From positions 1 through 33,320 of IMG/VR virus record IMGVR_UViG_3300025889_018766: DNA of 33,320 nucleotides. The stretch is one strand, 5' to 3'. Shown here piece after piece: positions 2,956 through 21,231 of the stretch. Below the pieces are notes generated by a model. That model made no database searches. It was not told the origin of the DNA and saw only the letters and a program-made list of their open reading frames with translations. Source of the stretch: a virus. Every line of letters begins with the position of its first letter. The first letter of the stretch is position 1. The position numbers and the translations under genes are program-made.

Positions 2956-4581
2956 TTAAAACCAAAGCGATTGGTTTAGAGTTGTACTATTCCCAGAAAC
3001 TATATAACCTAAATCAGTAGACCACCATCCAGAAGAAGCTATTTCTGCATCAGAAGCACTGACATACGATGGAACAGTATCATCTGTCCAAAGGCCCACT
3101 TTGAGTTCCGCAAGACCAAATCCGTATATCCTTGTGGTCATTGAACTTAAATCCGTTTCCATGCCTCTGATCTGGAAAGGGATATCATCAAAAATATTAT
3201 AATTCAGAGAAAAAACATCAGCTAAATTCTTCTGCAACCCCTTATGTGAAATAGTTACTTCTACTTCTGTAGGCTCATTAGAATACTGTATTAATTCTCT
3301 TTGTACTCTAGCTTCAACTGTATCTTTTTCGTATAGCCAATTAAATGTCATTGGCCTTTCAATTGTAGAAGACACCTCTTCGGTGGAAGCAGTTACTGTT
3401 TTTTCGTAATCACCTAAATACGTCCCAAAAACAGGATCAAAATTATAGGAAGCCCTTATCTTGTTAGTAAAAGTCCTTTGGGTGTCTCTTCTAAATACTA
3501 TATCAGCTTTATCTCTGTCTACATCTTCAAGTACTATATCTGAATCATAAACATCAAAAGAGGAAGACTTGTCAGTAATCAACCTAAATACAGGGCTATA
3601 TTTCCCATCAACAAAACGCAATTCTATAGCAGATTCATTGATTAGTTCTGATATTAGCACTTCACTTGTTGTATCTACATTAATAACCCTTCTAACAGGC
3701 TCAGTTACACTAGAATCAAGTAAATCAAAAGCAGTAAGATTCAAATTTTCAACATCTACAGAAAGATCAACCGTTAAAACATTTTTCAATACATCTTGTG
3801 GCGTTTCTATCAAAGTCCCATTTGAAGTTTCATAACCTTTTACATTAGCTGTAATTAGATCATTGGTAAAGTTATAAGATCCTACTAATTCAAAAGTTGC
3901 ATCTTCAAGCGAAACATTCTGATAAGCCGTGACAAGCCCATTTTGCAAAACTCTGTCTAGTGAATTTATTCTATGCCCTGCCACCTTAAATCTAGCATTC
4001 GCGGCAGTAGTAGAAATGCAATAAGCTTGTACTGAAATAGCATTTGCGGCGGCAGAAGAATAGTCCCCATATATAATAGGTATAGAAAGTCCACTAGCAT
4101 TCCTTTGTAAGTTTGGAAAATCGAGAGCAGTAAAATCTTTTTCCGGTAGGATTCTACGGTCTTTTAATCTTCTATCAATAACTGTAATTTTTGCGGAATC
4201 TTCATCCCATTCTACACCTGCGGGGTGTGCAACAAAGCCGGGGAAGACGATACTGTAATCATTTTTTGATTCCCCTTCACCTAACCAAATATTTACATTT
4301 CTATTAGCAAAAGTAAAAGAATCTATATATTCTTGTATTTTTTCATCTGTATTATCCAACTTCACATCAAAAGACTGTAGCGTTTCCTTTGGCTCAATAA
4401 AAGAGCTTAAGCTTCTACTCAGTGTCCCAGACTCTGGCAACCTACCTTCATAAAAGTATCCAGTTGTATTAGAATGCTGTATAGAGATATCAGAATCAGC
4501 AAAACGTAAAGTAGTAGAATCTAATAAAAATTCCACTAAATAATGGTATTCAGAAGATTTTGCTGTAGCGTTAAAAGCCAT
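2956..4581 (-). CDS. Tail hub / baseplate-like protein
   Basis: This 541-residue protein has no signal peptide or membrane segment. The N-terminus (VEFLLDSTTLRFADSDISI, then a GTLSRSLSSF stretch) and the following FPGFVAHPAGVEWDEDSAKI segment look like beta-rich phage tail proteins that describe a measured or deposited surface, similar in style to BR0599/DUF2163-type tail proteins. I do not see catalytic motifs. It lies between the discoidin-like protein and the fiber, the usual place for the tail-tip hub that carries fibers, and is 15 bases upstream of the fiber start. The SD for its ATG is weak. The hub role is inferred mainly from gene order; a structure prediction could also show a second distal tail protein. 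Confidence 0.55.
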   Translation of the reverse strand: MAFNATAKSSEYHYLVEFLLDSTTLRFADSDISIQHSNTTGYFYEGRLPESGTLSRSLSSFIEPKETLQSFDVKLDNTDEKIQEYIDSFTFANRNVNIWLGEGESKNDYSIVFPGFVAHPAGVEWDEDSAKITVIDRRLKDRRILPEKDFTALDFPNLQRNASGLSIPIIYGDYSSAAANAISVQAYCISTTAANARFKVAGHRINSLDRVLQNGLVTAYQNVSLEDATFELVGSYNFTNDLITANVKGYETSNGTLIETPQDVLKNVLTVDLSVDVENLNLTAFDLLDSSVTEPVRRVINVDTTSEVLISELINESAIELRFVDGKYSPVFRLITDKSSSFDVYDSDIVLEDVDRDKADIVFRRDTQRTFTNKIRASYNFDPVFGTYLGDYEKTVTASTEEVSSTIERPMTFNWLYEKDTVEARVQRELIQYSNEPTEVEVTISHKGLQKNLADVFSLNYNIFDDIPFQIRGMETDLSSMTTRIYGFGLAELKVGLWTDDTVPSYVSASDAEIASSGWWSTDLGYIVSGNSTTLNQSLWF

Positions 4582-4623
4582 TAATTTTCACGCAATGAAA
4601 AGAGTTTTAAGTGCCTTTAGATA

Positions 4624-5415
4624 CTAATTTTTTTCTTCAAATACAATATCGTTCAAATTCATTTCTCTACCAAATGTATGAATGAAAGATAGAGAATCGT
4701 TTTGAATTTGGCAGTAATACGTGTTATGGTTTGGCCTTACTTCTGGATCTAACGAAAGCATGAGTGGAGCATACTTACCCACTTTTTCAAATATTGCCAA
4801 TATCTGATCTTGCTGTGATTCAGACATATAGGAAACACTATAAGATAACTGAGTATACCTTCTTCTGGTATTTGCATACCCCTGTCTTCCCTTAACTGCC
4901 ACATATCTTGAAGGATCTATCCTAACCATAGAAAATCCCTCTCTCAGATTCTGCTGTGGCTCAATATATCTACCTGCCATTATCCTACCCACATCAATAT
5001 TCACTGACGAATTTCCTGTATCCTCTACATACAAACGCCAATGCTCATAAGTTTCTACAGAATCAAAGAAGTGAGTAATCTTCCTTATCTCTTGACCTGC
5101 CCCATCAGTAGCCATAGACAAAGTTACGTTTAAGCTTGGCGAACTAAAATCACTTGTGGCATTTCCTTGCCATAAAATTATCGCATCCTTACTAGCAGAA
5201 AAATTTGAGATCTGAACAACATTTATTCCGGTTGCACCTCCAGATGCGGCAAACTTTATCCATTCATTATCCCTGCCTGTTGTCCTATATACTTTCCTAA
5301 TTAAATCGTCTTGAACATTGGTGACAGGAAGACCGGAAGTCTCAGAAGACGCACTTATAGTAGCATCTTTTAATACATCATCAGTTGATGATAAAAATCG
5401 AACCTTATTTGCCAT
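4624..5415 (-). CDS. Tail protein with discoidin-like N-terminal domain, distal tail candidate
   Basis: This 263-residue protein begins one base after the tape measure stop. Residues about 18-130 (SASSETSGLPVTNVQDD, then RKVYRTTGRDNEWIKFAAS and later IILWQGNATSDFSSPS) follow the pattern of F5/8 type C (discoidin) jelly-roll domains found in many phage tail proteins: a loss-of-coverage phrase, a W/R-rich turn and a beta-sandwich with a conserved late W-R-L-Y. Such domains often bind carbohydrate. The C-terminal part (YTQLSYSVSYMSESQQDQILAI) is beta-rich. Position directly after the tape measure suggests a distal tail protein or tip adaptor. The fold assignment rests on pattern recognition, not a search. 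Confidence 0.55.
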   Translation of the reverse strand: MANKVRFLSSTDDVLKDATISASSETSGLPVTNVQDDLIRKVYRTTGRDNEWIKFAASGGATGINVVQISNFSASKDAIILWQGNATSDFSSPSLNVTLSMATDGAGQEIRKITHFFDSVETYEHWRLYVEDTGNSSVNIDVGRIMAGRYIEPQQNLREGFSMVRIDPSRYVAVKGRQGYANTRRRYTQLSYSVSYMSESQQDQILAIFEKVGKYAPLMLSLDPEVRPNHNTYYCQIQNDSLSFIHTFGREMNLNDIVFEEKN

Positions 5416-5416
5416 T

Positions 5417-8400
5417 TTAAATCTGACTCGCTGTTCTTACGGCACGATTATCAAAAGATATCTGCCCATATCTTGCTTTCTTAGACATTGCTTTAAAGAT
5501 GCTGTTTTCAATTTGAGGTAGCGTGCTTGCGATCATTCTTTGTATTTCTCTATCGCCATTTCCATTAATAGTAAAAGAAACATTGACAACATTACCTCCC
5601 ATAGATTCTTGCTCAGCAACAGAAAGAATCCTTTCTCCACCGTGAACAATGGCAGGAACAGCCCTAGAAGGAGGGCCGGGAACCAATGCCCCATGCCTAC
5701 CACTAATTGCAGCGGCAAAATCTGGATCTATTTGTGCTCTTTCTTGTGCCGCTTCTGAGAATCTTAAAATTGTGCTAACTACATCTGCTCCAGAAGTTTG
5801 TTCAAAAACCCTTCTTTGTTCTTCTTCCGTCAAAGGCACAAAGAAATCAACAGCTTGTAACTGGCTCTCATACAATGATTGTATGAATTGTTCTCTGGTT
5901 ATTGCCGCCATCTTTAAGAACCCTTCGCCTACGCCACCTTCAACAGCGGCTCTTAAAACATCTAATTTTACAAAGTCCTCCAAGTCAAATAAATCATCAA
6001 ACTGTTGTCTCGTAAATCCTAAAGCTATCTGAAGCTGATCTCTAAAAGACTCTATTCCTATTAATTGAGAAGCAAATCCTACTTGTTCAAAAAATTCTGG
6101 CCTTTGTGTAGCTTCAAGAATACCACCTGCTGCGGCAATTTCAGTTTGAGCTAATCTGACTTGTTCGGCAAACCGCTCAGCAGCGGCTTTTGACGGAGCG
6201 GCAAATGCCTTTGCAATAATACCACCTGCGAATCCACCAATAGCGGCTCCAATTTCACCTCCAAGCTTAGTCCCAGACAGACTCCCAAAAACTTGTCCTA
6301 AGCCTGCTCCTATCGCACCTCCTATTTCTCCATTGGGGCCAAACATGCTACCTATTTGAGCACCCAGAAAAGCTGACATAAGAACAGTGCTCATGTTGCC
6401 TTTTATTTTACTCCCTATATCACCCAAAATGCTAAAAGCATCGCTAATTTTGTCCATAGAAGACTCTGATATCTCTAAGACAAGATCTATAGTCTTTAAA
6501 CCCAAATCAGCAAACTTCTTCCACCCATCTCCTATTGTTTTCAAATTCACTTCAACATCGAAAACTTTTTTAGTAAGATCTAATAACTCATCACCAATAT
6601 CTAAAGTTTCCCTTAAGGCATCACCTGCTATATTTATAGTTGCGGTAAACACCCCTCCAGATATGTCATCTATTCTTCTGCCTATTTCTACTAAATTTTC
6701 TAATCCATTGCCTAATTGGTTTACTGAAAAATTAAAACTTTTTGTTGCTAAATCAGCACCCTTTGAAAGTATGCTTTCTATTTTTTCAAGCCCATCTCCA
6801 ATTTGATTAACTGAAAAATTGTAGACCCTTCTGCCTATGTCTAAAGCCTTATCTGCTGTGTCTATTATTTTTTGATATCCATTGCCAATTTGATCAACGA
6901 TAAATCTATAAACTTTGCCGCTTATATCTTGTATTTTAGAAACAGTATCTGTTATCCTTTTAAGTCCGTTCCCCAACTGGTCAACAATAAAACGATAAAC
7001 CTTGCCAGAAATTTGTTGTATCTTGCTTACTGTTTCTCTAATGTTGGGCAACGCATTGCCAAGCTGATCAACAATGAATCTGTAAACCCTTCCAGAAATC
7101 TCTTTAACTTTACTTACTGTCTCTCTAATGTTTAATAAAGCATTGCCAAATTGGTCAACGATAAATCTGTAAACTTTGCCGCTTATATCTGATATTTTCC
7201 CGACAGTTTCTCTAATATTCATTAGAGCATTACCAATCTGATCTACTACAAATTTATAAACCCTACCACTGACATCTGTTATTTTTCCAAGTGTTTCACG
7301 TATGCTACTTAAAGCATTGCCAAGCTGATCTACTGCAAATTGATAGGTCTTGCCGCTAAATCCAGCTATAGAACTTGCTATTTCACCTAATTTAGTAAGT
7401 GCATTACCTGTTTGATTTATAGTGAAGTAATATATGTCTCTCCCATAATTGCCTAATGTAGTAGCTAAATCGCTGAGCTTATTAAAGGCATTACCGGCTT
7501 GATTGATCGTAAAGCTGTATACATTAGATCCAAAGACTTTTAGCTTTCCACCAAGCTCCAAAAGCTTATCAAAAGCGTTACCTGCTTGATTTACTACAAA
7601 TTGATACGCCTTGCCTGTAAAATTAGCTATTTCATCTCCAAGCTCAGACAGCTTAGTAAAAGCATCGCCAACTAGATTTATGGCAAAATCATAGGTTTTA
7701 TTCGCATACTCTAACAGCTTAGGAAATCCCTCTTCGGCAAGAAAGGTAAATATCTTAGCACCTTGATCCTTTATTACTGCGTATGCATCTTCCCCTATCG
7801 ACAACAATGCCTTCATTGTTTGTGCTGTAAGAAGTTGGACCGTAGCATCTTGAAAGCCTAACACTAAGCTGTCTTTTATAGAGCCTCCAAAAGCTTTCAT
7901 CCTTGCAATAAAACCAGTTTCATCTTCAAGCTTTTTTACTAATCTATCTATTTGAGAAGCTATTTCTGTCGGAGCTTCAAGACCAAAAGATGATATAAGG
8001 TTTCTTGCATATGCCTGTAGATTTTTGGGCAATCTTTGATCATCTGCTACTTCTTGCAACCTTGCTTGTATGGATTCAACGGCAAGAAAATCTGAAGGAG
8101 TATCTACTAAGTCATCAGTAAAAGTATTTCTTATTTGTTCGCTTAATGGTTCAAGTTTCTTTATCGCTTCTTCAGCCGCTTTAACATCCTCTGATCCGAA
8201 TAATAGATTCCTGTATGCTTCTGAAACTCCACCTTCTAAAGATGTTAGTATTGTCTGTGTAAAATCTTGTATCTGAGTTTCAATAGTACCTAAACTTTCT
8301 CTATATGCATCTACTGCCGTTCTGACATTATTATTTATTGCGTTACCAACATTTTGCCAGAACCCAATAACTTTAGGTTCTTGTTTTACTGTCTCTTCAG

Positions 8401-9964
8401 CAAATTCTACAACTTCTTCAGTTGCTTCACTTACAGAATTTGCAGTTTCATCAATTACCTGCTGAACTTCTCCAAATAAGCCTCTAAGTTTTTCTTGATT
8501 CTCTTCAGAAACATTAAAAGTCTCAATTAAGTTATCTAAATAAGAGCTACCAATTATATCAAGTCCATCAAGAACGCCCTCACCTACATTAGAAAAACCT
8601 TCTTTTGTGGTTTGGACAAGATTATCCCATGCTTGTACTGATTCTGCGCTTGGTGGACTTAATTCGGGTAAGTCGATAGTACTTATTGAGTCGGCCAGAT
8701 CATTGATCTCTTGAATCCAATCATCTGGTAAAATAGCTTCAAACAGACCTGCTATTTTTTTTATGCCTATAGTAGAAGCATTAATAAGAGGATTTATAAA
8801 TAAAACGAGTGCAAACCTATATACACTTTTCCAAGTGTTTTCAAAATCTGTAGTAATCTTAGTTAAAAGGAATTTGAAAAAATCTATACCACTATCAACA
8901 ATTAAATTAAATGCCCTTACTCCGACTTCACTTATTGCGCTAAAAGTATTTACGGCATTGTGTGCAAATGCCGTATACATTCTTTCAAATGATTCCATTG
9001 GATTGCTAGTAAGCTCTTCATAAAAATCACTAGCAATGTCACTTATAATGTCAAATCCTCTTGACATTATATCAAGAAGCTTTGGTATAGCGGCAAATGC
9101 GGCAGGTATTTTAGTAGTAAGCAGATCAACTATGAATTGTATTGCACCTTTCATAGGTTCAGTAAACTTAATCTGCTCATTTAGAGTGCCTACCATTCTT
9201 CTGAAGGCATTATCTACTTGAGTCATCATCGATCCTATGGTCGGTTCCATAAGATCGAATTCTTCTCTAATTTGACTTCCTTGGCTTTGTAGTGCTCTCA
9301 CCAATGCCGCAGAAGTAATCTTGCCCTCGGACGCTATCTTTCTAAGTTGTCCAAATGGAACACCCATACCTTCAGCAATAGCTCTTGCTAGTCTAGGTGC
9401 TTGCTCTAAGACAGATCTGAGTTCATCGCCCCTTAAAGTCCCAGATGCCATACCTTGGCCCAACTGCATAATAGCCGCTTCCATTTCTATGGCACTAGCA
9501 CCAGAGACTTGGAATGACTTACCTATGGTATCTGTAAGTTCAAGCATCTCTGCTTGAGAGAGATTTAGCTCAGTAGTAGACATGGCTATTCTACTATAGA
9601 GACTACCTACAGCATCTAAAGGACTTCTAGATTGTTGTGCAATCTTGAAAAGTTGTTCTTGAGTATTGACTACTTTACTGCCCTCAACTCCAACAACCTT
9701 AAGCCTATTTGCTGTAGTAGCCCAAGCATCTGCATATTGAACTATTTTAGAAGTAGCCGCACCAGCGGCCAAACCTACAATTGCGCCCTGCAAAGAAAAA
9801 ACTGACTTTGTTGCTTTACCAGCTACACCACTCAAAGAGGAGATAGAAGAGCGTATCCCCCTTAATCCTCTAGTAGCCGCATCTGTAAGCCTAACTACTA
9901 TACCTACATTAACACTTGCTCCACCAAATAGTCTATCTTCTTTTTTAGGCGTAACAAAGTTCAA
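5417..9964 (-). CDS. Tail tape measure protein
   Basis: The 1515-residue protein is the longest in the window. Its length sets tail length, and it occupies the tube lumen before DNA ejection. Residues about 80-275 match the tape measure N-terminal domain (TIGR02675 type): NRLKVVGV, SPLDAVGSLYSRIA, LRGDELRSVLEQAPRLARAIA and GKITSAALVRALQSQ. Then come hydrophobic helices near 380-405, coiled-coil-like stretches, 13 tandem 29-residue repeats (754-1130), a Gly-rich hydrophobic segment (GSMFGPNGEIGGAIGAGLGQ) and a C-terminal AIVHGGERILSVAEQ motif common to tape measures. The start is a TTG at 9962-9964 with GGAGA seven bases upstream; no better ATG lies nearby. It follows the tail assembly chaperones, as usual. 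Confidence 0.95.
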   Translation of the reverse strand: MNFVTPKKEDRLFGGASVNVGIVVRLTDAATRGLRGIRSSISSLSGVAGKATKSVFSLQGAIVGLAAGAATSKIVQYADAWATTANRLKVVGVEGSKVVNTQEQLFKIAQQSRSPLDAVGSLYSRIAMSTTELNLSQAEMLELTDTIGKSFQVSGASAIEMEAAIMQLGQGMASGTLRGDELRSVLEQAPRLARAIAEGMGVPFGQLRKIASEGKITSAALVRALQSQGSQIREEFDLMEPTIGSMMTQVDNAFRRMVGTLNEQIKFTEPMKGAIQFIVDLLTTKIPAAFAAIPKLLDIMSRGFDIISDIASDFYEELTSNPMESFERMYTAFAHNAVNTFSAISEVGVRAFNLIVDSGIDFFKFLLTKITTDFENTWKSVYRFALVLFINPLINASTIGIKKIAGLFEAILPDDWIQEINDLADSISTIDLPELSPPSAESVQAWDNLVQTTKEGFSNVGEGVLDGLDIIGSSYLDNLIETFNVSEENQEKLRGLFGEVQQVIDETANSVSEATEEVVEFAEETVKQEPKVIGFWQNVGNAINNNVRTAVDAYRESLGTIETQIQDFTQTILTSLEGGVSEAYRNLLFGSEDVKAAEEAIKKLEPLSEQIRNTFTDDLVDTPSDFLAVESIQARLQEVADDQRLPKNLQAYARNLISSFGLEAPTEIASQIDRLVKKLEDETGFIARMKAFGGSIKDSLVLGFQDATVQLLTAQTMKALLSIGEDAYAVIKDQGAKIFTFLAEEGFPKLLEYANKTYDFAINLVGDAFTKLSELGDEIANFTGKAYQFVVNQAGNAFDKLLELGGKLKVFGSNVYSFTINQAGNAFNKLSDLATTLGNYGRDIYYFTINQTGNALTKLGEIASSIAGFSGKTYQFAVDQLGNALSSIRETLGKITDVSGRVYKFVVDQIGNALMNIRETVGKISDISGKVYRFIVDQFGNALLNIRETVSKVKEISGRVYRFIVDQLGNALPNIRETVSKIQQISGKVYRFIVDQLGNGLKRITDTVSKIQDISGKVYRFIVDQIGNGYQKIIDTADKALDIGRRVYNFSVNQIGDGLEKIESILSKGADLATKSFNFSVNQLGNGLENLVEIGRRIDDISGGVFTATINIAGDALRETLDIGDELLDLTKKVFDVEVNLKTIGDGWKKFADLGLKTIDLVLEISESSMDKISDAFSILGDIGSKIKGNMSTVLMSAFLGAQIGSMFGPNGEIGGAIGAGLGQVFGSLSGTKLGGEIGAAIGGFAGGIIAKAFAAPSKAAAERFAEQVRLAQTEIAAAGGILEATQRPEFFEQVGFASQLIGIESFRDQLQIALGFTRQQFDDLFDLEDFVKLDVLRAAVEGGVGEGFLKMAAITREQFIQSLYESQLQAVDFFVPLTEEEQRRVFEQTSGADVVSTILRFSEAAQERAQIDPDFAAAISGRHGALVPGPPSRAVPAIVHGGERILSVAEQESMGGNVVNVSFTINGNGDREIQRMIASTLPQIENSIFKAMSKKARYGQISFDNRAVRTASQI
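6575..7705 (-). repeat. Thirteen tandem 87-bp / 29-residue repeats within the tape measure gene
   Basis: Residues 754-1130 of the tape measure fall into 13 units of exactly 29 residues without gaps. A typical unit starts SGKVYRFIVDQLGNALPNIR and ends ETVSKIQQI. The pattern is an aromatic-rich strand (V/T-Y-x-F-x-V/I-D/N-Q), a G-N/D-A/G turn, then an amphipathic helix ending in D-I or similar. Central units (5-10) are the most alike; units 1-4 and 11-13 are more divergent, and a fourteenth, degenerate unit with two extra residues (TKKVFDVEVNLKTIGDGWKK) follows. At the DNA level the central units are similar but not identical, so the array is old or under selection rather than a fresh duplication. 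Confidence 0.92.
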
Positions 9965-12867: not shown

Positions 12868-13359
12868 TCAAGTCATAGTTTCGACACGGATCTGTAATTG
12901 TCCTTCCTGTAAAAAAAATGTGCTTGCATCATCGCCTACTAGAGGCGAATACTCTTTACTGATACATATAACGTCATTTACGTTACCATTCATGGTTCTA
13001 TTTTCTAAAAAAACTTCTTCTATGCCCCTTATAGTCCTCATTGCTCTGCGCTTAAGATATTCTTCGTCTTCGCCTCTACTTATAAGGGCTATTGCAATGG
13101 TAACATCGTGATGTTCAATGCCGTATCTACTTTGCCCATCAAAAGGATTTAAATCTGTCCCTTCTGCTATAACGACAAGCAAAGGGTATCCCGGTGGGTT
13201 CAGTTTTTCAGACACAAACATAAACTGTTCGGGTATGTCCTCTAAAACGATACCGTCATTGTATTCTGCGTCTAATTCATTAAGCTTTGCAGGCAAATCA
13301 CTTTTTATTGTAGAAATAATTGTGTCAGCAACCCAAGCAATATCTCTTTTACCTGCCAT
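12868..13359 (-). CDS. Tail terminator / minor tail protein candidate
   Basis: This 163-residue protein follows the virion morphogenesis protein with a TAATG overlap (one shared base). The sequence has an alpha/beta pattern: a first helix (WVADTIISTIKSDLPAKLNEL), a central strand (PPGYPLLVVIAEGTDL), a strand with HHDVTIAIALISRG, a helix with YLKRRAMRTIRGIEEVFLE, and a final beta hairpin (LQEGQLQIRVETM). This order is that of lambda gpU-like and other tail terminator proteins that cap the tube and join it to the head. Position before the major tail protein agrees. The family assignment is by pattern and order only. Confidence 0.6.
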   Translation of the reverse strand: MAGKRDIAWVADTIISTIKSDLPAKLNELDAEYNDGIVLEDIPEQFMFVSEKLNPPGYPLLVVIAEGTDLNPFDGQSRYGIEHHDVTIAIALISRGEDEEYLKRRAMRTIRGIEEVFLENRTMNGNVNDVICISKEYSPLVGDDASTFFLQEGQLQIRVETMT

Positions 13360-13865
13360 TATCTAAGCCCTTCAAATTTTGGCAATTTTTTACTCACGGC
13401 ATACCTTAAAATTTTACTTGTCCAAGATCTTCTTCTTTTTTCTGCAACTCTAAATAAAGATCTCTGAGGCATGTTTTGAGTCCCTGTCATGTGGTATTTC
13501 GCATGAGGGACTTTAGTTCCTATTTCTAATGATTTTCTATTATAAACAGCGGCAAAATTGCTATCAGATGTATTAGTTAAAGACCGATACAGTTTTCCTG
13601 TGTCTTGCAGGATTTTCCTTTTGTTTTTTCCTCTTTTCTTTGCTATAGTCTTTGGACTCAAGTCGGCCCACTTCTCATATCCAGAAATAGCACCTCTTTT
13701 TCTGAACATTGTGCCTTGGGATTTAGCAAAATCTCCTGCTATCCATCTAAAAACAGGTCTAAAGTCATATAGCCTTTTTTCGATAAGCCCTAATCTAGCT
13801 AATGCTTCAGATGCATTTACTTCTATGCCTGTAGTTGCAGGTGCTTGACGTTTATTTCCGTTCAT
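13359..13865 (-). CDS. Virion morphogenesis protein (Mu gpG-like, neck/tail completion)
   Basis: This 168-residue basic protein matches the phage virion morphogenesis family (PF05069 type). Seen features are an N-terminal helix (EALARLGLIEKRLYDF), then W-A-D-L-S-P-K-T-I-A-K-K-R, ILQDTGKLYRSL, a beta region with IGTKVPHAKYHMTG, and MPQRSLFRVAEK. Members act in joining heads and tails. It lies between the connector-like protein and the tail terminator candidate, as in many siphophages and myophages. Confidence 0.85.
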   Translation of the reverse strand: MNGNKRQAPATTGIEVNASEALARLGLIEKRLYDFRPVFRWIAGDFAKSQGTMFRKRGAISGYEKWADLSPKTIAKKRGKNKRKILQDTGKLYRSLTNTSDSNFAAVYNRKSLEIGTKVPHAKYHMTGTQNMPQRSLFRVAEKRRRSWTSKILRYAVSKKLPKFEGLR

Positions 13866-13866
13866 A

Positions 13867-14370
13867 TTAGAAGTCTTGATCTCTTGTAAAAACTGGATCT
13901 TTGTCGTTTAAATTGGAATCTACATAAAAGCGAGATTTTGGTTGAAGCTCGTTTTTACGAAGATTATAAGCACCTTCTCTGGCGGCATTCGGCAATTCTA
14001 TTCTGCCAGTAGAAAAATCTTTCCACAGCATTTTTTGCTGTTCATATAAAGCTATAGCTTGAGGAGAAACACCTGCATTTCCTCCCCTCATTGCCATGTC
14101 TATACTAGCCGCTGAATTCAAAGCGTTGATTTTGCCTAAGATAGCTATAGAAGTAGCATTAGTCGAAGGAACAGGGACTACATACCCCATTTCCTTCAAC
14201 ATGCCATTCATAACATCAAAGTTATCTCTAATGTGAACAGTTAAAGCTTGCTTTTTAGTGGGCCTCGTAGTTGAATTTAAACTAACCCAAGGAATGTATG
14301 CTTCGATTCTTTCAAATGTAGCATAACAATCTACACTAAGCTCTAAATCTGCTGTTGCATTACGAGACAT
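13867..14370 (-). CDS. Head-tail connector-like protein
   Basis: This 167-residue protein starts MSRNATADLELSVDCYATFE one base after the preceding gene stops and ends one base before the next gene. The N-terminal LELSVDCYATFERIEAYIPW segment and the helical remainder are compatible with the adaptor/neck proteins that precede the tail terminator in many phages. I see no clear motif. The assignment is by order alone; it might instead be a tail completion protein. Confidence 0.45.
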   Translation of the reverse strand: MSRNATADLELSVDCYATFERIEAYIPWVSLNSTTRPTKKQALTVHIRDNFDVMNGMLKEMGYVVPVPSTNATSIAILGKINALNSAASIDMAMRGGNAGVSPQAIALYEQQKMLWKDFSTGRIELPNAAREGAYNLRKNELQPKSRFYVDSNLNDKDPVFTRDQDF

Positions 14371-14586
14371 TTAACCCTCTTTAAAATATACGTTTGCTTC
14401 GACTACGCCCCGATGTGACCAACCATTTTTAAGTAGATCTTCTCTCACATCACTACAAACAAAAATATTCATTTTGCCCTTTGATGCAGTAATCTTCTTC
14501 TTAGAAGATCCTCCCTCTATAATATTAACTTCTTTGTCGGTCTGGGAAGAAATAACATTTACCACTTCAAGTGCTGATTCATTCAT
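14371..14586 (-). CDS. Small hypothetical protein opening the tail operon
   Basis: This 71-residue protein (MNESALEVVNVISSQTDKEV) has a strong SD (AAAGGAGA) and is the first minus-strand gene after the divergent promoter region, so it begins the tail operon. Its pattern of short beta strands (KMNIFVCSDVREDLL, HRGVVEANVYF) suggests a small barrel or connector subunit, but I do not recognise the family. Confidence 0.6.
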   Translation of the reverse strand: MNESALEVVNVISSQTDKEVNIIEGGSSKKKITASKGKMNIFVCSDVREDLLKNGWSHRGVVEANVYFKEG

Positions 14587-14647: not shown

Positions 14648-14675
14648 TTGACACCCAACAAAAGTAGCCTATACA
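14648..14675 (+). promoter_or_regulatory. Sigma70-type promoter of the plus-strand cytidylyltransferase gene
   Basis: A perfect -35 (TTGACA, 14648-14653) is followed after 16 bases by TATACA (14670-14675); TACATT two bases on is an alternative -10 with 18-base spacing. The transcript would start near 14683, with AGGAG at 14691-14695, five bases before the ATG at 14701. Confidence 0.65.
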
Positions 14676-14700
14676 TTATATATAAGGCAAAGGAGAATCA

Positions 14701-15099
14701 ATGAAAAAAGGTATTTTATTTGGGACTTTTGATGTTTGGCATCCCGGATATGCCTTAATGGTCAACGAGTCTAAGGAATATTGTGATTATCTTATCGTTG
14801 GACTACAAGCGGAAAACAGCAAAAAAAAACTATGCAATTCTATCCATGAGAGATTCATGGTATTAAAAAGCATAGCAGATATAGACGAAATAGCTATTTA
14901 TTCGTCAGAAGAGGAATTGTGCAACCTTTTGAGGTATTACAGGCCCGATTTTAGATTTTTAGGCACAGACTATCAAGACTCTGACAAATTTGCAGAAGTT
15001 AGAGGAAAATCCATATCTGGGGAAATTATATTCCTAAATAGAGATCACGGTTATAGCACTAGTCAGTTCAAAGAAAGACTAAGTAAAGTTAATATGTAG
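14701..15099 (+). CDS. TagD-like cytidylyltransferase with altered HxGH motif
   Basis: This is the only plus-strand gene in the window. The 132-residue protein matches the small nucleotidyltransferase family of glycerol-3-phosphate cytidylyltransferase (TagD), which makes CDP-activated polyols from CTP and a phosphate. The fingerprint GTFD (8-11), then HPGY (14-17) in place of HxGH, a helix with HERFMVLKSIADIDEIAIY, RPDFRFLGTDYQ and a late STSQFKERL (119-127) equivalent to the family's ISTT motif are visible. Tyr17 replaces the second catalytic His, so activity may be changed or lost. Length equals that of TagD. It has its own promoter and SD, and its 3' end overlaps the convergent radical SAM gene by 21 bases. 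Confidence 0.85.
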   Translation: MKKGILFGTFDVWHPGYALMVNESKEYCDYLIVGLQAENSKKKLCNSIHERFMVLKSIADIDEIAIYSSEEELCNLLRYYRPDFRFLGTDYQDSDKFAEVRGKSISGEIIFLNRDHGYSTSQFKERLSKVNM

Positions 15100-16233
15100 A
15101 GGCTCTATTCCAACAGGTCGATCTTCTTCTGATTCTATAAAACTATTTGTATTCTTTATGATTTCGGTAAATTGACATCTTTCACACGAAGTAGCTTTGA
15201 AGTCTTCCATATTTTTCTTTTTGCTTTCAGAATCCAACAACTCTTTAAATCGCATATTTTTTATTGACCCTACAAGCCCATGCTTGTTATAGGCATAAAC
15301 ACAGCATCTGTATAAATTTAAATCTCCACCTATATATTGAGTAAAATGTTGATAAGAGCAAAATTCAAAGTCTGGGTTTCCCTTATCAAGCTCATCGTAT
15401 TTTTCTGAAACCCTATTTATTACAGTAAACCTATTATCTGAAAAATCTTCTACTGCTTTTATTGCCAAATAATTCATGTCGTATCTAAATGCTTCGTAGG
15501 GCTTTGATCCTTCTGGATTAAACATTAACCCAATTCTAACATTATCAAATCCCCACTCTTTGTATAGCCTTACTGCATCATATATTTGCTTCCAGTTTCT
15601 GTCTGTAACAACAAACCCTGCACCCAACACCACATCATGTTCAACTTCGCTTAGATCTTTCTTTAACTCTTTTATGCCCTCTTCAAGTCGATCCCAAGCT
15701 TTTATCCCAACGCCTCTTTCTTCAGAATAATATTCTGGGGTTGAGGAATCTATAGAAACTCTAACCCACTTAAGCCTTTTTACTACATCTCTATGGCTTT
15801 TATTTATAAGCATATTGCCATTGGTAACCAAAGCCACTTCAAAGCCTTTATCTAAGGCATATGTGACGATTTCAACAAAGTCTGGATGGACAGTAGGCTC
15901 TCCACCTCCAGTGAACTGAATTGCCTTTACACCCATTACTTCACAATCATCTAAGATTTCAAAGCATTTTTGCTTATCTATCATTCTTCTGGGATTTCTC
16001 GCTTTTCTACTATTACCTTCTTCTATCTGGAAAAGCTCATTTGAAGAATATCCCGACATTCTGTAGGCACAAAAGCCGCAATCATGATTGCAAAAATCAG
16101 ATATAACTATTTCAACATGAACAGGGTATGGTTGTTCGCCATTCCTCAATGTTTCAATACTTTTTGTATGATATATTGGCTTAGAAGTAGAATACACATT
16201 ACCTTTTTTAAATTCTTGATCCAATTTATTCAC
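15079..16233 (-). CDS. Radical SAM enzyme with SPASM-like C-terminus
   Basis: This 384-residue protein has the radical SAM cluster motif C48-x3-C52-x2-C55 (SDFCNHDCGFCAYRM), the GGGEPT SAM-binding motif (109-114), a TNGN strand end (137-140) and a VRVSIDS strand (158-163). The C-terminal region carries Cys292, Cys310, Cys311, Cys350 and Cys353, in the style of a SPASM or Twitch auxiliary Fe-S domain. Such enzymes modify peptides, sugars or alcohols by radical chemistry. It is the last gene of the minus-strand glycan cassette and its product could form an unusual sugar or peptide modification; the substrate cannot be read. The 5' end overlaps the preceding gene by eight bases. Confidence 0.9.
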   Translation of the reverse strand: MNKLDQEFKKGNVYSTSKPIYHTKSIETLRNGEQPYPVHVEIVISDFCNHDCGFCAYRMSGYSSNELFQIEEGNSRKARNPRRMIDKQKCFEILDDCEVMGVKAIQFTGGGEPTVHPDFVEIVTYALDKGFEVALVTNGNMLINKSHRDVVKRLKWVRVSIDSSTPEYYSEERGVGIKAWDRLEEGIKELKKDLSEVEHDVVLGAGFVVTDRNWKQIYDAVRLYKEWGFDNVRIGLMFNPEGSKPYEAFRYDMNYLAIKAVEDFSDNRFTVINRVSEKYDELDKGNPDFEFCSYQHFTQYIGGDLNLYRCCVYAYNKHGLVGSIKNMRFKELLDSESKKKNMEDFKATSCERCQFTEIIKNTNSFIESEEDRPVGIEPLHINFT

Positions 16234-16957
16234 CTAGTCTTTTATTGTATTTTTCTATTATGCCGTCTACGAAATTATTTTCATGGAATGAAAATACATA
16301 AGGAAGCCCGTTCCCTTTTTCTAGCGCATCACCTAAACATTGCTCAATGCTCCATCTATTGGTGCATTCTATATTTGCAATGTGTCGTGCAAAGTCAGAC
16401 TTCACAATGAAAAAGCTATAATTGAAGTCAGAATTATCGTCTTTTTGTATTCTACCTCTATTTAGCCCATGCTTAATTTCAATATATGTTTTATCGCTAC
16501 TTGGATACTCTGAACCTAAGGTTCTTGAACATGCGATGTCGCAATCAAAGCTACTCATAAGTTCTATTATATTCTTTATGCCATGCATGTTCATTATTAG
16601 CGTACTGCCATCTACGAAAACAATGTATTCTATCTTTTCAATATGTGATACATTGCCATTACTGGTTTCTGATTCCTTAGTGAGATTAGCAAATTGATTA
16701 AATAGAATTCTTATGTCTCTTAAAAGTCTTTGCGTCTTAACTTCATATTCGGAATAATCATTTCTTAGGTCTAAAGCGGTGTTGTAATATTTATATTTAG
16801 ATGTTTTTATAGAGTTTATTTTTGCTGATAAATATTTGTCTTTTTCTTCAGATGAATGCAAGATGCTTATATATGAAAACCTACTTCCTACAGATGAAAT
16901 TGTACTAAAAGCAGTTTCTGAATTTTTATCTATAGAAATACATAAACCTAAAGCCAT
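16226..16957 (-). CDS. Unknown protein, possible GT-A-like glycosyltransferase
   Basis: The 243-residue protein begins with a strand (MALGLCISIDKNS), has a helical insertion with many charged residues (about 40-105), then EYIVFVDGSTLIM (110-122). A strand ending in VD-x-S/D is where GT-A glycosyltransferases place their DxD metal site; here the third position is Ser, so the motif is not complete. The later KHGLNRGRIQ and YSFFIVKSDFARHI segments recall acceptor-site regions of such enzymes. It overlaps the radical SAM gene by eight bases. Glycosyltransferase is a guess from context and fold pattern. Confidence 0.4.
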   Translation of the reverse strand: MALGLCISIDKNSETAFSTISSVGSRFSYISILHSSEEKDKYLSAKINSIKTSKYKYYNTALDLRNDYSEYEVKTQRLLRDIRILFNQFANLTKESETSNGNVSHIEKIEYIVFVDGSTLIMNMHGIKNIIELMSSFDCDIACSRTLGSEYPSSDKTYIEIKHGLNRGRIQKDDNSDFNYSFFIVKSDFARHIANIECTNRWSIEQCLGDALEKGNGLPYVFSFHENNFVDGIIEKYNKRLGE

Positions 16958-16958
16958 T

Positions 16959-17150
16959 TTATTTGATTCTATTATAAAAGCTTAAAACTTTAGATTGGTC
17001 TTTAGATTTGTAAACTACTCTTTCCGCATTTCTATTATCTACTATACAGAACACAATTTCATATCTTGGAATAAAAGCAAATTCAACTTCATCACCTTCC
17101 AAGTATTTCTTCCTTGCCTCTTCTGGAGATTTTTCAGAATTCATTGTCAT
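16959..17150 (-). CDS. Small hypothetical protein in glycan cassette
   Basis: This 63-residue protein (MTMNSEKSPEEARKKYLEGD) has a helix and then a beta pattern (EVEFAFIPRYEIVFCIVDN, then RVVYKSKDQSKVLSFYNRIK). The start is not certain: ATG codons at 17177, 17150 and 17144 are all in frame, and no strong SD precedes any of them. The 17150 start gives a 17-base overlap with the upstream gene and fits coupled translation. Function unknown. Confidence 0.5.
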   Translation of the reverse strand: MTMNSEKSPEEARKKYLEGDEVEFAFIPRYEIVFCIVDNRNAERVVYKSKDQSKVLSFYNRIK

Positions 17151-17745
17151 AAAATTTAAAATATTCCCAAGCTTCATTTATGTAATTAGTACAAATTCCT
17201 TTAACTTTTACGTCTTTTATTGCTCTTTCCCACCACCAATATACAAAAGACATCTGTGAGCTTGGAGAAAGGACATCTGGAGAAGAGAAATAAACTGGTA
17301 TATCTTTCGCTTTATCATAATTTAAATATGAAATGTGCTCTAAGTCTGAACCCTCATCTGGATGCATCTTAACGGACCACACCGCTTTAATCTTCTCAAA
17401 TCCTGTATCGCCTTCATACTCACTTGCAGTTTCTGCTATAGGTGCTCCATAATGATAAAAATCCCATTTGCTCTGGAATGACATTCCATAAACAAACCAC
17501 CTATTAGGCACTTTTTTTTCCAATATATCAACTATTTGATTATGTAATCCATCGCTTTGCACATGAATAGCATAAATTGGATGATCTGGATGGTCGTCAA
17601 TCCAACCATTTAAAATAGGACAAGATTTTTTTATAGGCCCATCTTCGACCATTGGCAATCCATGAAAATCTCTTACGTCTATTTCTACGCCAAACTTGGG
17701 GTCAAGGTTTTTTATATCTTGAGCCTTGTTTGCTATAATTAGCAT
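17134..17745 (-). CDS. GDPD-like (PLC-like phosphodiesterase fold) protein, probably inactive
   Basis: This 203-residue protein resembles short phosphodiesterase-fold proteins found in surface polysaccharide clusters. The pattern is a first strand (MLIIANKAQDIKNLD), GVEIDVRD (acidic pair of GDPD enzymes, residues 19-26), a third segment MVEDGP where active relatives have a His-Asp (VLSHDP), then IYAIHVQSDGLHNQIVDIL, RWFVYGMSFQ and ETASEYE. The HR of the first strand and the His of the HD motif are both missing, so catalysis by the usual route is doubtful. It may bind a polyol-phosphate or sugar-phosphate without cutting it. It has an AAAAGGA SD. Confidence 0.5.
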   Translation of the reverse strand: MLIIANKAQDIKNLDPKFGVEIDVRDFHGLPMVEDGPIKKSCPILNGWIDDHPDHPIYAIHVQSDGLHNQIVDILEKKVPNRWFVYGMSFQSKWDFYHYGAPIAETASEYEGDTGFEKIKAVWSVKMHPDEGSDLEHISYLNYDKAKDIPVYFSSPDVLSPSSQMSFVYWWWERAIKDVKVKGICTNYINEAWEYFKFYDNEF

Positions 17746-17764
17746 TAATTTTTCCTTTTACTTT

Positions 17765-17932
17765 TCAAAGGATATAATTAAATCCAAAATAAGTTAATAT
17801 GTTTTTTGCTATATAATTACTTGCATAAAAAAGAATCCAAAATAAGGTAAAGACCAATAAGATTTTAATAGTTTTAACAGCTACACCAGAAGATTGTTTT
17901 TCTTCTTCTTCTTTGTTGTATATTTTTATCAT
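17765..17932 (-). CDS. Small single-pass membrane protein (55 residues)
   Basis: The frame runs from an ATG at 17930-17932 to a TGA at 17765-17767. The start overlaps the methyltransferase stop as ATGA, which supports coupled translation. The protein has a charged N-terminus (MIKIYNKEEEEKQSSG), then one long hydrophobic helix (about 22-42, IKILLVFTLFWILFYASNYI) and a short polar end. It may anchor or organise the cassette enzymes at the membrane. No family recognised. Confidence 0.65.
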   Translation of the reverse strand: MIKIYNKEEEEKQSSGVAVKTIKILLVFTLFWILFYASNYIAKNILTYFGFNYIL

Positions 17933-18399
17933 TTTTTTACAATCAAGTCGTAATGTGCGTTCTTAGAAACTTCATCATATCTATATGAAACTTCAAATTC
18001 CCCTTTAATGGCATACATTGGCCCTCTCTGTATTATGTATCCACCATCAAACAAAGAGTCGCTTGATTTTTTCCACATATCAAAACTATACTCATCCCAA
18101 TCTTTCTTTTTATGAGTAAAATCTTTACCACAGTTTGGAGATCCCAATGCAGGGACTTCTACATAAATATGGCTTTCAGACTTACAGACTCTATGCATTT
18201 CCTCAACGAGAAAAATAAGATCATCACCATCAAAATGTTCCAATATGTGATTTGCTATTATGCCATCCACCGAATTGTCTGAGAATGGTAGTCCTCTAGT
18301 TATTGATCTTACAATATCAACTCCATCAAAAGGATAATGATCTATTCCAATGCATCCCTGTCTTTTATTTGGGCCGCATCCAACATCAAGCCATATCAT
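17929..18399 (-). CDS. SAM-dependent methyltransferase
   Basis: This 156-residue protein is a compact class I methyltransferase. Motif I (LDVGCGPNKRQGCIGID, residues 4-20), the strand with IVRSITRGLPFSDNSVDGII, and the ANHILEHFDG motif are characteristic of the Methyltransf_11 type. The C-terminus is short compared with the usual 200-250 residues. It overlaps the GT4 gene by 14 bases. In a glycan cassette it probably methylates a sugar or its carrier, but it could act on another small molecule. Confidence 0.85.
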   Translation of the reverse strand: MIWLDVGCGPNKRQGCIGIDHYPFDGVDIVRSITRGLPFSDNSVDGIIANHILEHFDGDDLIFLVEEMHRVCKSESHIYVEVPALGSPNCGKDFTHKKKDWDEYSFDMWKKSSDSLFDGGYIIQRGPMYAIKGEFEVSYRYDEVSKNAHYDLIVKK

Positions 18400-19285
18400 T
18401 TTTGACCTCTTTGAAAAATTTTTTTAGCTCTTTAGTATATCCAGAATAACTTAAACCTTCTATACGCATTCTTCTGTTTAGCTTAGTAATAGCTATATCT
18501 TCTAATATCTGAACTAAGCCTTTTACATCATTCGGAGAATAAAGCATATGCCCCTCATGTAAACTATCACCAATTAAGTCCTCAACAAAACCAACCCTTG
18601 AAGAAATTACTGGTAATCCGCAAGCTAAAGCCTCCAATAAAGACATCGGCCCCCCCTCCCAAAGAGAAGGAATCAAAAGGTAGTCAAGGGAGTGATAAAA
18701 ATCTTGATATGTTTCGTAGTCTTCATTTTCGTCAAATTCAACACTGCTTATATCGCAAAAATTAGACTTATTCCAACCTTTACCTTTTATCTTTAATTTT
18801 ATTTCATTTCTAAAGAAAGGTTGTAATTCTTTCCATGCTTTTTGTAAAAATCCATCCCCCTTGCCCTCAAATCCTCCCCTTTGCACGACTCCAATAGTGC
18901 AAGGCTTTACGTCAAACGATCTCACATCACCGGGATATAAAACAATTTGTCTATCCTTATATAGCCCTGCTTTTTGAAACTCTTTAAAGTATCTGTTGCA
19001 CATGTGAACAACCCCATCCAACGTACTCCAATGTTCTTTCATTGAATTGATACTATCTTTGTGTAGATGGGTAAAAAATCCTATATGTATTGCATTTGGC
19101 AAAAGTTTTTTGTAGGCAGGGTTCCATGTATTCTGAATATCTACGTAAAAAATACATTCAAAACTTTCCATATCATAATATTCATCTCTGTGGTAAGAAA
19201 TGAATTCTTTATCACTAAGACATATCTTTTTAGATATGTGTGATAATATCCAACCGCTCTTAGGGTGCATTACAAGTGTTTTCAT
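18386..19285 (-). CDS. Glycosyltransferase, GT4 family (GT-B fold)
   Basis: The 299-residue protein has the C-terminal donor-binding half of GT4 enzymes: YLLIPSLWEGGPMSLLEALA with the E-x7-E motif (Glu of WEGG and Glu of LLEA), then GLPVISSRVGFVEDLI. The N-terminal part begins MKTLVMHPKSGWILSHISKK and is shorter than in typical members of 350-400 residues. It likely transfers a sugar from a nucleotide donor. It overlaps the Zn-ribbon gene by four bases (ATGA) and the methyltransferase gene by 14. Confidence 0.88.
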   Translation of the reverse strand: MKTLVMHPKSGWILSHISKKICLSDKEFISYHRDEYYDMESFECIFYVDIQNTWNPAYKKLLPNAIHIGFFTHLHKDSINSMKEHWSTLDGVVHMCNRYFKEFQKAGLYKDRQIVLYPGDVRSFDVKPCTIGVVQRGGFEGKGDGFLQKAWKELQPFFRNEIKLKIKGKGWNKSNFCDISSVEFDENEDYETYQDFYHSLDYLLIPSLWEGGPMSLLEALACGLPVISSRVGFVEDLIGDSLHEGHMLYSPNDVKGLVQILEDIAITKLNRRMRIEGLSYSGYTKELKKFFKEVKNDMA

Positions 19286-19536
19286 ACTATAGCGTTTCTA
19301 AACTTTTTTTCACATTTTCTACAGGTGAATACTAATTCATCTACGATTTTATTATTGTTGAGTATTTCATCTATTCTTAATCCTATATTCTCTACATAAT
19401 ACCACTCTTCTGATATATTATCTTTGTTTTCATATTTGCAATTTGGGCATTTGTTATTTTTTGGTGCAATATCAATTATGCTTTTTATAGGTTTGTCATT
19501 GGATACTATTTTTATCTTCTTTTCGATCCAATTCAT
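19282..19536 (-). CDS. Small zinc-ribbon protein
   Basis: The protein of 84 residues starts MNWIEKKIKIVS. I chose the ATG at 19536, which has GGAAGAGAG six bases upstream, over an ATG at 19560 without a well placed SD. Two Cys pairs (CPNC and CRKC) about 40 residues apart should bind one zinc. It overlaps the GT2-like gene by 41 bases. Role unknown; it may bind nucleic acid or a partner protein. Confidence 0.6.
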   Translation of the reverse strand: MNWIEKKIKIVSNDKPIKSIIDIAPKNNKCPNCKYENKDNISEEWYYVENIGLRIDEILNNNKIVDELVFTCRKCEKKFRNAIV

Positions 19537-20356
19537 AGCAAACTCTCTTCCAGTGATCATATGATGATATTTCAGCTAACTCCTTTACGCCAAAACACCC
19601 ATCTTGTAGAGTAAATTCTTCCTTTGAATTTTGCTCAAACCAAGAAGGAAGCCATTCAGCATCTAAATGCTCTATGCTTAAATTTGTCTCATCTACAAGA
19701 CGGTTCAAGGCCCAACCTTCTTGTCCCAATTCCCTGTAAGTGAAATACTTCTTTACTATTTCTTCGGTTCTTGAAAATCCTAAATGAATAAGTTGGCCTT
19801 TAGATCCAGTGTATTTACTTGTCACGACTTCTTTGTTTTGGTCATAGTAAAATCTGGGGTATTGCTTTTGATGTAGCTTGGGAACAGGCACATAATGTAA
19901 TTCTCCTGTGTTTTTCCAAAAAACACCGTGCCATAAATCGTTAAAGCTTTCATCTGTCCTGTAAAATCTATCAGATTTCCATAAGTTTAGATTATGTAGA
20001 TGAAGAAGCACGATACCTTTTTCATCACAACTTACAAGCGACTCTCTTGTATCATCATAAGACTCCCAATCCTTGCCTAATATTGCATCACTGTCAAACC
20101 AACATATCCAATCTGGATTTTCTCTCAAAGCGATAGTGAGCAATTCTTGCTTATGCTGTAATTCTCTGTAAAATTCATTTTTATGACCATATATAACTAC
20201 ACAGTTATATTTATTGTATATGGGCCTAACATCTTCAGTGGAAGCATCATCATAAACCACTATATAGTCGCAAATATTGCTCATTGAGATAAGGCAGTTT
20301 TCTAAAAAGCCATTCTCAACGCAATTATAATTCTGTAGAAAGCCACATATTTTCAT
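19496..20356 (-). CDS. Glycosyltransferase, GT2-like (GT-A fold)
   Basis: This 286-residue protein has an N-terminal nucleotide-binding part: MKICGFLQNYNCVENGFLEN, YIVVYDDAST (DD at 36-37), then a strand with DWICWFDSD (DSD at 88-90), the usual metal site. The later GQLIHLGFSRTEEIVKKYFT segment is common to GT2 relatives that add sugars to surface glycans. It is the second gene of the cassette in transcription order, after a structured 137-base gap. The donor and acceptor are not known. Confidence 0.82.
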   Translation of the reverse strand: MKICGFLQNYNCVENGFLENCLISMSNICDYIVVYDDASTEDVRPIYNKYNCVVIYGHKNEFYRELQHKQELLTIALRENPDWICWFDSDAILGKDWESYDDTRESLVSCDEKGIVLLHLHNLNLWKSDRFYRTDESFNDLWHGVFWKNTGELHYVPVPKLHQKQYPRFYYDQNKEVVTSKYTGSKGQLIHLGFSRTEEIVKKYFTYRELGQEGWALNRLVDETNLSIEHLDAEWLPSWFEQNSKEEFTLQDGCFGVKELAEISSYDHWKRVCYELDRKEDKNSIQ

Positions 20357-20376
20357 TTTATAACCTTTGTAAAAAT

Positions 20377-20494
20377 GGGAGGAAGGATAAAGGAAACAGG
20401 CAACTGCTCTAGCGACTTGTTAATATATCCTTCCCCCCTAAAGTATACACGTTTAAAATCCCGTCCTCGTTAAGATTTTAGCAGTGTATAACTT
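20377..20494 (-). other. Two adjacent long inverted repeats between two glycosyltransferase genes
   Basis: The gap 20357-20493 is almost wholly structured. The hairpin nearest the upstream gene pairs AAG(T)TATACAC and TAAAATC blocks on either side of a 13-base loop (arms 20441-20460 and 20474-20494) and begins at the stop codon. The second pairs GGGGGGAAGGATA with TATCCTTCCTCCC (20426-20438 with 20377-20389, one mismatch) around a 36-base loop. On the transcript the second stem is followed by ATTTTTAC, so it may work as a terminator or attenuator; the loop is long for that. Confidence 0.65.
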
Positions 20495-21231
20495 CAACTT
20501 GGAATCCAAACATGACCGCTAACTCCGTAGCGATCTCTTAAAAATTCCATGTCTTTGTCTTTTTTAGCTTTTTCTTCTGGATCTTTTAAAGTCTGTATCA
20601 TTTGCCCTTCGTGAACTCTTCTTCTCACTAAGGGTATGTTTGTTGCAACAAAATTATATTTTTCTGCCATACGCAACAAAAATTCATAATCTTGGCAATG
20701 AACCATATTAGAATCGAAATTGCCAAGCTCATCAAGAATGCTTCTGTGAAACATTATGGTAGCGGCATTTACAAAACAATGCTTTTTGAACGCTTCAAAA
20801 AAAGACTCTTGATTAGGATACTCTGCTACTCCCCAAGTATTAGCTGTGATAGGTATTCCTTCTTGGTATGCCGTGTATCCTACTTTTGCATCTCTGCTTT
20901 TTAAAGCTTCAAGCTGTATCTGTGTTTTTGAAGGGTGAAATAAATCATCACTAGGAAGCCATTGTATATATTCGCCTTTTGCTTCTTCTAATCCTCTATT
21001 TAAAGCCCCAGAAACGCCTTGGTTTTCTTGGTATATATACATACAAGGCACGTTGAACTCTGCGCTGTATCCCTCTAAAACGTCAACAACGGTTTCTTCT
21101 TGATTAGGCGTTGAGCCATCATCAACTATTATTATTTCGCATTTATGCGTTTGATGTTTAGCACTCAAGAGGCAAGCCCTTAAGTATGAAACATCTTGAT
21201 TATAGGTTGGTATAATTATTGAAGAGTCCAT
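20494..21231 (-). CDS. Glycosyltransferase, GT2 family
   Basis: This 245-residue protein is a classic GT-A enzyme. It starts MDSSIIIPTYNQDVSYLRAC, has IIIVDDGSTP (DDGS at 37-40) for nucleotide binding, the NQGVSGALNRGLEEAKGEYI stretch, the metal-binding SDD (94-96) in WLPSDDLFHP, and the acceptor-side segment MVHCQDYEFLLRMAE. It is the first gene of the cassette in transcription order and is set apart from its neighbours by structured gaps on both sides. Function: transfer of a sugar from a nucleotide donor, target unknown. Confidence 0.92.
   Translation of the reverse strand: MDSSIIIPTYNQDVSYLRACLLSAKHQTHKCEIIIVDDGSTPNQEETVVDVLEGYSAEFNVPCMYIYQENQGVSGALNRGLEEAKGEYIQWLPSDDLFHPSKTQIQLEALKSRDAKVGYTAYQEGIPITANTWGVAEYPNQESFFEAFKKHCFVNAATIMFHRSILDELGNFDSNMVHCQDYEFLLRMAEKYNFVATNIPLVRRRVHEGQMIQTLKDPEEKAKKDKDMEFLRDRYGVSGHVWIPS

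Follow-up and report, generated by a model that had tools for sequence, protein, structure and literature searches.

A radical-SAM and glycosyltransferase gene cassette ahead of the tail module of a metagenomic phage as a candidate glycan pathway

What does a phage do with a compact set of sugar-handling genes placed between its replication and tail genes? We investigated this question for the cassette at positions 14701-21231 of IMG/VR virus record IMGVR_UViG_3300025889_018766, a linear virus fragment of 33,320 bases that was analyzed over its full length (hereafter the window). The cassette contains 11 genes: two GT2-family glycosyltransferases (GT2a and GT2b), one GT4 glycosyltransferase, a GT-A-fold protein, a methyltransferase (MT), a radical S-adenosylmethionine enzyme with a twitch-type domain (rSAM), a 55-amino-acid (aa) membrane protein (TM55), a small Zn-binding protein, a protein resembling glycerophosphodiester phosphodiesterases (GDPD-like), a 72-aa open reading frame (ORF), and a nucleotidyltransferase (NTase). 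Ten of the 11 form a single run on the minus strand, the NTase being the sole plus-strand gene. At about even odds (roughly 0.5), we interpret the ten minus-strand genes as a phage-borne glycan pathway, the product of which would be a radical-modified and probably methylated glycan with a virion protein, rather than the host envelope, as its more likely acceptor.

The clustering of rSAM with GT2 genes is the strongest evidence for a joint function. With a profile built from five rSAMs, the family was found in 54 IMG/VR contigs; one further locus, in a Planctomycetota metagenome-assembled genome (L062), came from a genome-contig scan that used other patterns than the viral scan, so that the counts are not comparable. 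Of 53 non-redundant loci, 44 have a same-strand glycosyltransferase-type gene no further than 5 kb from rSAM. All 21 long records carry GT2 genes, and 36 of their 40 GT2 genes are no more than 6 kb away from rSAM, against an expectation of 8.2 (0 of 20,000 random placements reached 36).

Gene order in relatives is consistent with this coupling. The tail module of the window recurs in four related contigs (L003, L010, L011, and L012), most of its genes being 30-83% identical. In L003, eight cassette genes are retained and those for the NTase and the GDPD-like protein are missing (order GT2b-Zn-GT4-MT-TM-o72-GTA-rSAM-o71, where o72 is the 72-aa ORF and o71 the first gene of the tail module); its stretch begins inside GT2b, so the presence of GT2a there cannot be judged. 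L010, in which the cassette is flanked by the same replication and tail genes, retains GT2a, GT2b, TM55, GT4, MT, the GDPD-like gene, two copies of the GT-A gene, and rSAM (SNF2-ParB-DnaB-HNH-...-GT2a-GT2b-TM-GT4-MT-...-rSAM-o71-tail). L011 and L012 have only the GT-A and rSAM genes in common with the window cassette, ahead of the same tail module; NTP-transferase, HAD, or methyltransferase genes are the neighbors of this pair, and an epimerase gene comes after o71. The pair is thus fixed in the lineage, and the other cassette genes are exchangeable. The initial annotation had proposed one glycan pathway and asked whether its genes stay together in other phages. The order kept in L003 and L010, the rSAM-GT2 coupling, and the sugar-nucleotide-like fold of rSAM described below all support that proposal, and no scattering was seen for the core.

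Identity of rSAM to the window in the four relatives (77, 66, 54, and 57%) roughly tracks that of the tail gene o459 (82, 66, 60, and 52%), and the five rSAMs of the lineage form one clade in the rSAM tree (support 100/100). Within the lineage, the core of rSAM and glycosyltransferase has been inherited with the tail module while accessory sugar genes were swapped, so that the glycan would differ between phages. Across the whole tree, structural groups are mixed among lineages, which indicates that rSAM also moves between phage types. Because they are conserved in relatives with gene order kept, the cassette ORFs are real genes rather than chance ORFs. A near-identical phage (99-100%) is present in other samples; GT2b, GT4, and o459 found no tblastn match in phage records, so the lineage is known here from metagenomic contigs only. 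Additional cassette genes occur in L010 at 3653-9510 (a phosphotransferase, a CmcI-like methyltransferase, an NTP-transferase, the second GT-A copy, and a B12-binding radical-SAM gene), and an opposite-strand gene that appears amidase-like by eye (L063:3878-4516) lies between the replication genes and the cassette of the L010 contig.

rSAM (15079..16233, minus strand) belongs to the radical-SAM superfamily PF04055 (Pfam, E = 5.7e-19), with a CxxxCxxC motif and a barrel in its AlphaFold2 model (predicted local distance difference test, pLDDT, 93.4). C48, C52, C55, C292, C310, C311, and C353 are invariant in 32 aligned members, and C350 is conserved in >90%. The initial annotation had called the protein radical SAM/SPASM-like; the first half of this label stands (Radical_SAM, 6e-19), whereas the SPASM domain (PF13186) scored 17.9 bits against a cut-off of 21.5 (E = 0.004), and the alignment has only five conserved C-terminal Cys (292/310/311/350/353) vs. 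about seven for two SPASM auxiliary clusters. The sequence therefore fits a radical-SAM site with one predicted auxiliary cluster of the twitch type rather than a full SPASM domain. Among solved structures, DesII and BlsE, both radical-SAM enzymes that act on sugar nucleotides, ranked first in a Foldseek search with the model (TM-score about 0.6-0.7, 12-18% identity). The likeness is one of fold only, since the equivalog models gave 39.2 vs. 400 bits (TIGR04466) and 36.2 vs. 450 bits (TIGR04426). Fold and neighbors together suggest a sugar nucleotide as the substrate. Four homologs carry Hint/intein domains inside the CxxxCxxC motif (L012:6015-8036, L055:9641-11602, L048:9998-11557, and L035:8663-10972), before the third Cys in two and before the second in two; a 222-aa ORF in another frame (L012:6364-7032) overlaps one intein and appears homing-endonuclease-like by eye, with no Pfam match. 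One large phage contig, the 205-kb record L053, has five radical-SAM genes. A literature search, which mostly did not reach subscription journals, revealed no publication on this rSAM family and few papers on radical-SAM enzymes and phage glycosylation.

The ten genes named in the initial annotation are all open frames, with Pfam support for the NTase, rSAM, MT, GT4, GT2a, and, weakly, GT2b. Their description as about ten genes packed with overlaps was right as to overlaps (4-65 nt), but there is an eleventh ORF, the NTase lies on the opposite strand, and two gaps interrupt the run (137 nt between GT2a and GT2b, 19 nt between TM55 and the GDPD-like gene). All coordinates that follow are on the minus strand unless stated otherwise. 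GT2a (20494..21231, 245 aa; Glycos_transf_2, 6e-27) is the first gene of the run, and its ortholog in the L010 contig is 67% identical and in the same position. GT2b (19496..20356, 286 aa) matched Glyco_tranf_2_4 weakly (3e-4) and a PHROG glycosyltransferase (9e-6), with 59% identity in L003 and 62% in L010. GT4 (18386..19285, 299 aa) is of the GT-B type (Glyco_trans_1_4, 4.5e-15; 51% in L003, 49% in L010). The protein at 16226..16957, which had been listed as possibly GT-A-like and is present in all four relatives, returned no significant Pfam match and only noise by sequence against the PDB. Its AlphaFold2 model (pLDDT 86.6, predicted TM-score 0.87) matched GT-A glycosyltransferases with Foldseek probability 1.00 (E about 1e-8, TM-score about 0.5), so the predicted structure is that of a GT-A fold.

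The S-adenosylmethionine-dependent MT (17929..18399, 156 aa; Methyltransf_11, 4e-8) is 71% identical in L003 and 66% in L010. TM55 (17765..17932), with one transmembrane (TM) segment predicted from hydropathy, is about 30% identical in L003 and L010 and adjoins cassette genes in both. For the 92-aa protein annotated as a Zn ribbon (19282..19560; CxxC..CxxC), both CxxC pairs are kept in L003 (47% identity), and only a weak DUF4379 match (0.0013) was obtained. The 72-aa ORF (16959..17177), absent from the earlier gene list, is 52% identical over 44 aa in L003, in the equivalent place in the order. The GDPD-like label of the 203-aa protein at 17134..17745 stems from its motif alone: no Pfam match was found at 0.1 and no PDB match at E = 5, further profile searches were empty, and in alignment with the L010 homolog (29-32% identity), the only one found in a relative, E-x-D is kept and the catalytic His pair is not. 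We therefore do not assign it as a GDPD phosphodiesterase.

HxGH is the motif of active enzymes in the NTase superfamily; the NTase (14701..15099, plus strand; CTP_transf_like, 1e-10), convergent with rSAM and overlapping its end, has HPGY instead. It had been annotated as a TagD-like cytidylyltransferase. The TagD glycerol-3-phosphate cytidylyltransferase model TIGR01518 gave 43.7 vs. 165 bits, and the HldE-C/RfaE-II model gave a higher score that is likewise below its cut-off (56.4 vs. 181.5). HPGY recurs in a cyanophage homolog (L006:3058-3810), which has a fused N-terminal domain (HAD-like by eye); vibriophage and roseophage homologs have HAGH, and these two lie outside glycan clusters. 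The gene is absent from all four relatives, and in L003 o71 closely follows rSAM. A promoter-like site upstream of the NTase (TTGACA-18-TACATT, 14648-14677, 10/12 match) is of a kind that shuffled sequences yield about as often. The NTase is probably a later-inserted moron. With the TagD label fallen and a GDPD-like gene in one other relative only, a TagD/polyol-phosphate function is not part of the cassette core, contrary to the pathway first proposed.

The location between replication and tail modules, as initially annotated, is borne out by gene content on both sides. Minus-strand replication genes (UvrD, SNF2, ParB-like, DnaB, and HNH/DUF968) occupy 22.6-29.7 kb. The minus-strand tail module extends from 14.6 kb down to position 1; it starts with o71 (14371..14586) and continues with o167 and a neck/tail-completion gene (13359..14370; PHROG tail completion/Neck1, 2e-20 for 13359-13865). 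Its 1,515-aa tape measure (5417-9964) contains numerous repeats resembling GKVYRFIVDQLGNALxNIRETVSKI. Thus, the ten cassette genes lie directly upstream of structural genes on the same strand, the neighborhood that virion glycosylation would call for. Of 56 loci, 31 have a recognized packaging, head, or tail gene that shares the strand within the fetched stretch, a raw count with no chance expectation. The cassette splits such genes in some (L028, terminase-GT-rSAM-portal; L019, tail protein-GT-rSAM-tape measure), and rSAM directly precedes the portal gene in L017. TM55 is the only cassette protein with a predicted TM segment. Among 394 neighboring genes, only a tape measure and a 107-aa protein have at least three such segments, and no multipass transferase or flippase was recognized among them or in the window cassette.

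In the proposed pathway, rSAM would carry out a radical modification, most likely of an activated (nucleotide) sugar, which the MT would probably cap or decorate. Glycan assembly and transfer would be cytoplasmic and fall to the two GT2s, GT4, and the GT-A protein. The solubility of all transferases and the continuation of the run into tail genes make late expression probable and a head, neck, or tail protein of the virion a more likely acceptor than a lipid-linked envelope glycan. Several observations weigh against this interpretation. The evidence consists of gene content, order, conservation, rSAM-GT coupling, and predicted folds, and the window is a fragment rather than a complete genome. 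T4-like relatives (L013-L016, L020, and L061) have the cassette among replication/recombination genes rather than structural ones, and in long records terminase is 3.5-51 kb away or further, leaving the structural placement loose in all but a subset; terminase distances revealed no tight linkage, and the tape measure and portal models matched too few long records for a clustering test. TM55, kept in three phages, could link the pathway to the membrane. Conservation of DxD in the GT-A protein is not strict, its homologs having DGST, TDDT, TGGT, or TGDT, and peptide-modifying SPASM enzymes are among the structural matches of rSAM.

The cassette may instead remodel the host surface: in the infected cell, lipopolysaccharide core or O-unit sugars, or a different envelope glycan, would be altered so as to block superinfection or re-adsorption to debris. 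Placement beside late genes favors the virion, whereas TM55, a conserved predicted membrane protein, and published pelagiphage readings favor the host surface. Pelagimyophage glycosyltransferases, some of them in a region that also has radical-SAM cassettes, have been interpreted as O-chain modifiers (PMC7029224). The glycan regions of HTVC008M and SynMITS9220M01 resemble the window in combining glycosyltransferases, a radical-SAM gene, and a methyltransferase gene in a phage genome (PMC7029224), and have remote rSAM homologs beside heptose or UDP-glucose dehydrogenase genes. Unlike the window, they belong to large myophages, lie near tail fibers or are hypervariable, and have the host O-chain as their interpreted target; their rSAM is only 28-30% identical over 38% of the length. 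Against a host-surface target, the window has no complete sugar-precursor pathway, and in many phages the cassette either just precedes a run of structural genes or interrupts one. GtrABC seroconversion cassettes are phage glycosyltransferase genes that alter the host surface. A mechanism of this type is unlikely here, given that no GtrA/GtrB/GtrC-like multipass protein was recognized in the cassette or among the 394 neighboring genes. Surface modification that depends on a flippase is thereby disfavored, but lipid-linked sugars could still be modified at the inner leaflet. We consider host-surface remodeling rather unlikely overall and prefer a virion target at about even odds.

It is improbable that a phage peptide or protein is the direct substrate of rSAM, with the glycosyltransferases adding sugar to the new side chain. 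SuiB, SkfB, anSME, and EpeE match the rSAM model, the top matches of the GT-A protein are collagen hydroxylysine galactosyltransferases, and o71 follows rSAM in all loci of the lineage as the next same-strand gene. However, DesII and BlsE outrank the peptide enzymes, and o71 is poorly conserved (23-59%) and not linked to rSAM outside the lineage. A ribosomally synthesized and post-translationally modified peptide cluster was rejected, no precursor having been recognized. Two other explanations have very little probability. Sugars could be placed on phage DNA bases against restriction, and phage glycosyltransferases are known to decorate DNA (Pyle 2024, as cited in PMC12619734), but a thymidylate-synthase homolog (PF00303) is present in only one of 26 records, which are fragments, and in none of the lineage, and no deoxynucleoside monophosphate hydroxymethylase or base-modifying kinase was recognized in the window. 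The genes could also be unrelated morons without a joint pathway, as the NTase and the accessory genes that vary between relatives might suggest; for the core, this is disfavored by the coupling statistics, the overlapping genes, and the order kept in L003 and L010.

The cassette is a variant of already known phage glycosylation cassettes. Capsid and tail-tube proteins of mycobacteriophages are considered to be glycosylated by phage-encoded glycosyltransferases (Freeman 2023, as cited in PMC12619734 and PMC11256854). The window likewise encodes glycosyltransferases, its modification being predicted, and differs in having four of them with rSAM and a methyltransferase, whereas the citing passages on mycobacteriophages mention no radical-SAM enzyme. 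Podovirus ctQWt234 (MW202801) has an rSAM-GT-PhyH-methyltransferase-NodB-GT run between major capsid and stabilization genes, although its rSAM is only 23% identical and its accessory genes are different.

Glycosyltransferase genes are frequent in phages, and the role of most is unexplained. We tentatively propose that the rSAM family makes a radical-modified sugar or a side-chain glycan anchor that glycosyltransferases attach to virion proteins, as a widespread modular decoration in which rSAM and one glycosyltransferase are fixed and phages exchange the remaining sugar genes. The rSAM-GT pair, conserved in about fifty phage contigs and with inteins in the catalytic motif of four rSAMs, singles out one enzyme family for assay. 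Were the glycan on virions, it would represent a radical-chemistry route to particle decoration, relevant to phage stability, recognition, and enzyme discovery. More generally, our results suggest that phages repeatedly use radical-SAM and sugar-transfer genes to give an unusual sugar coat to their own particles or to the infected cell.

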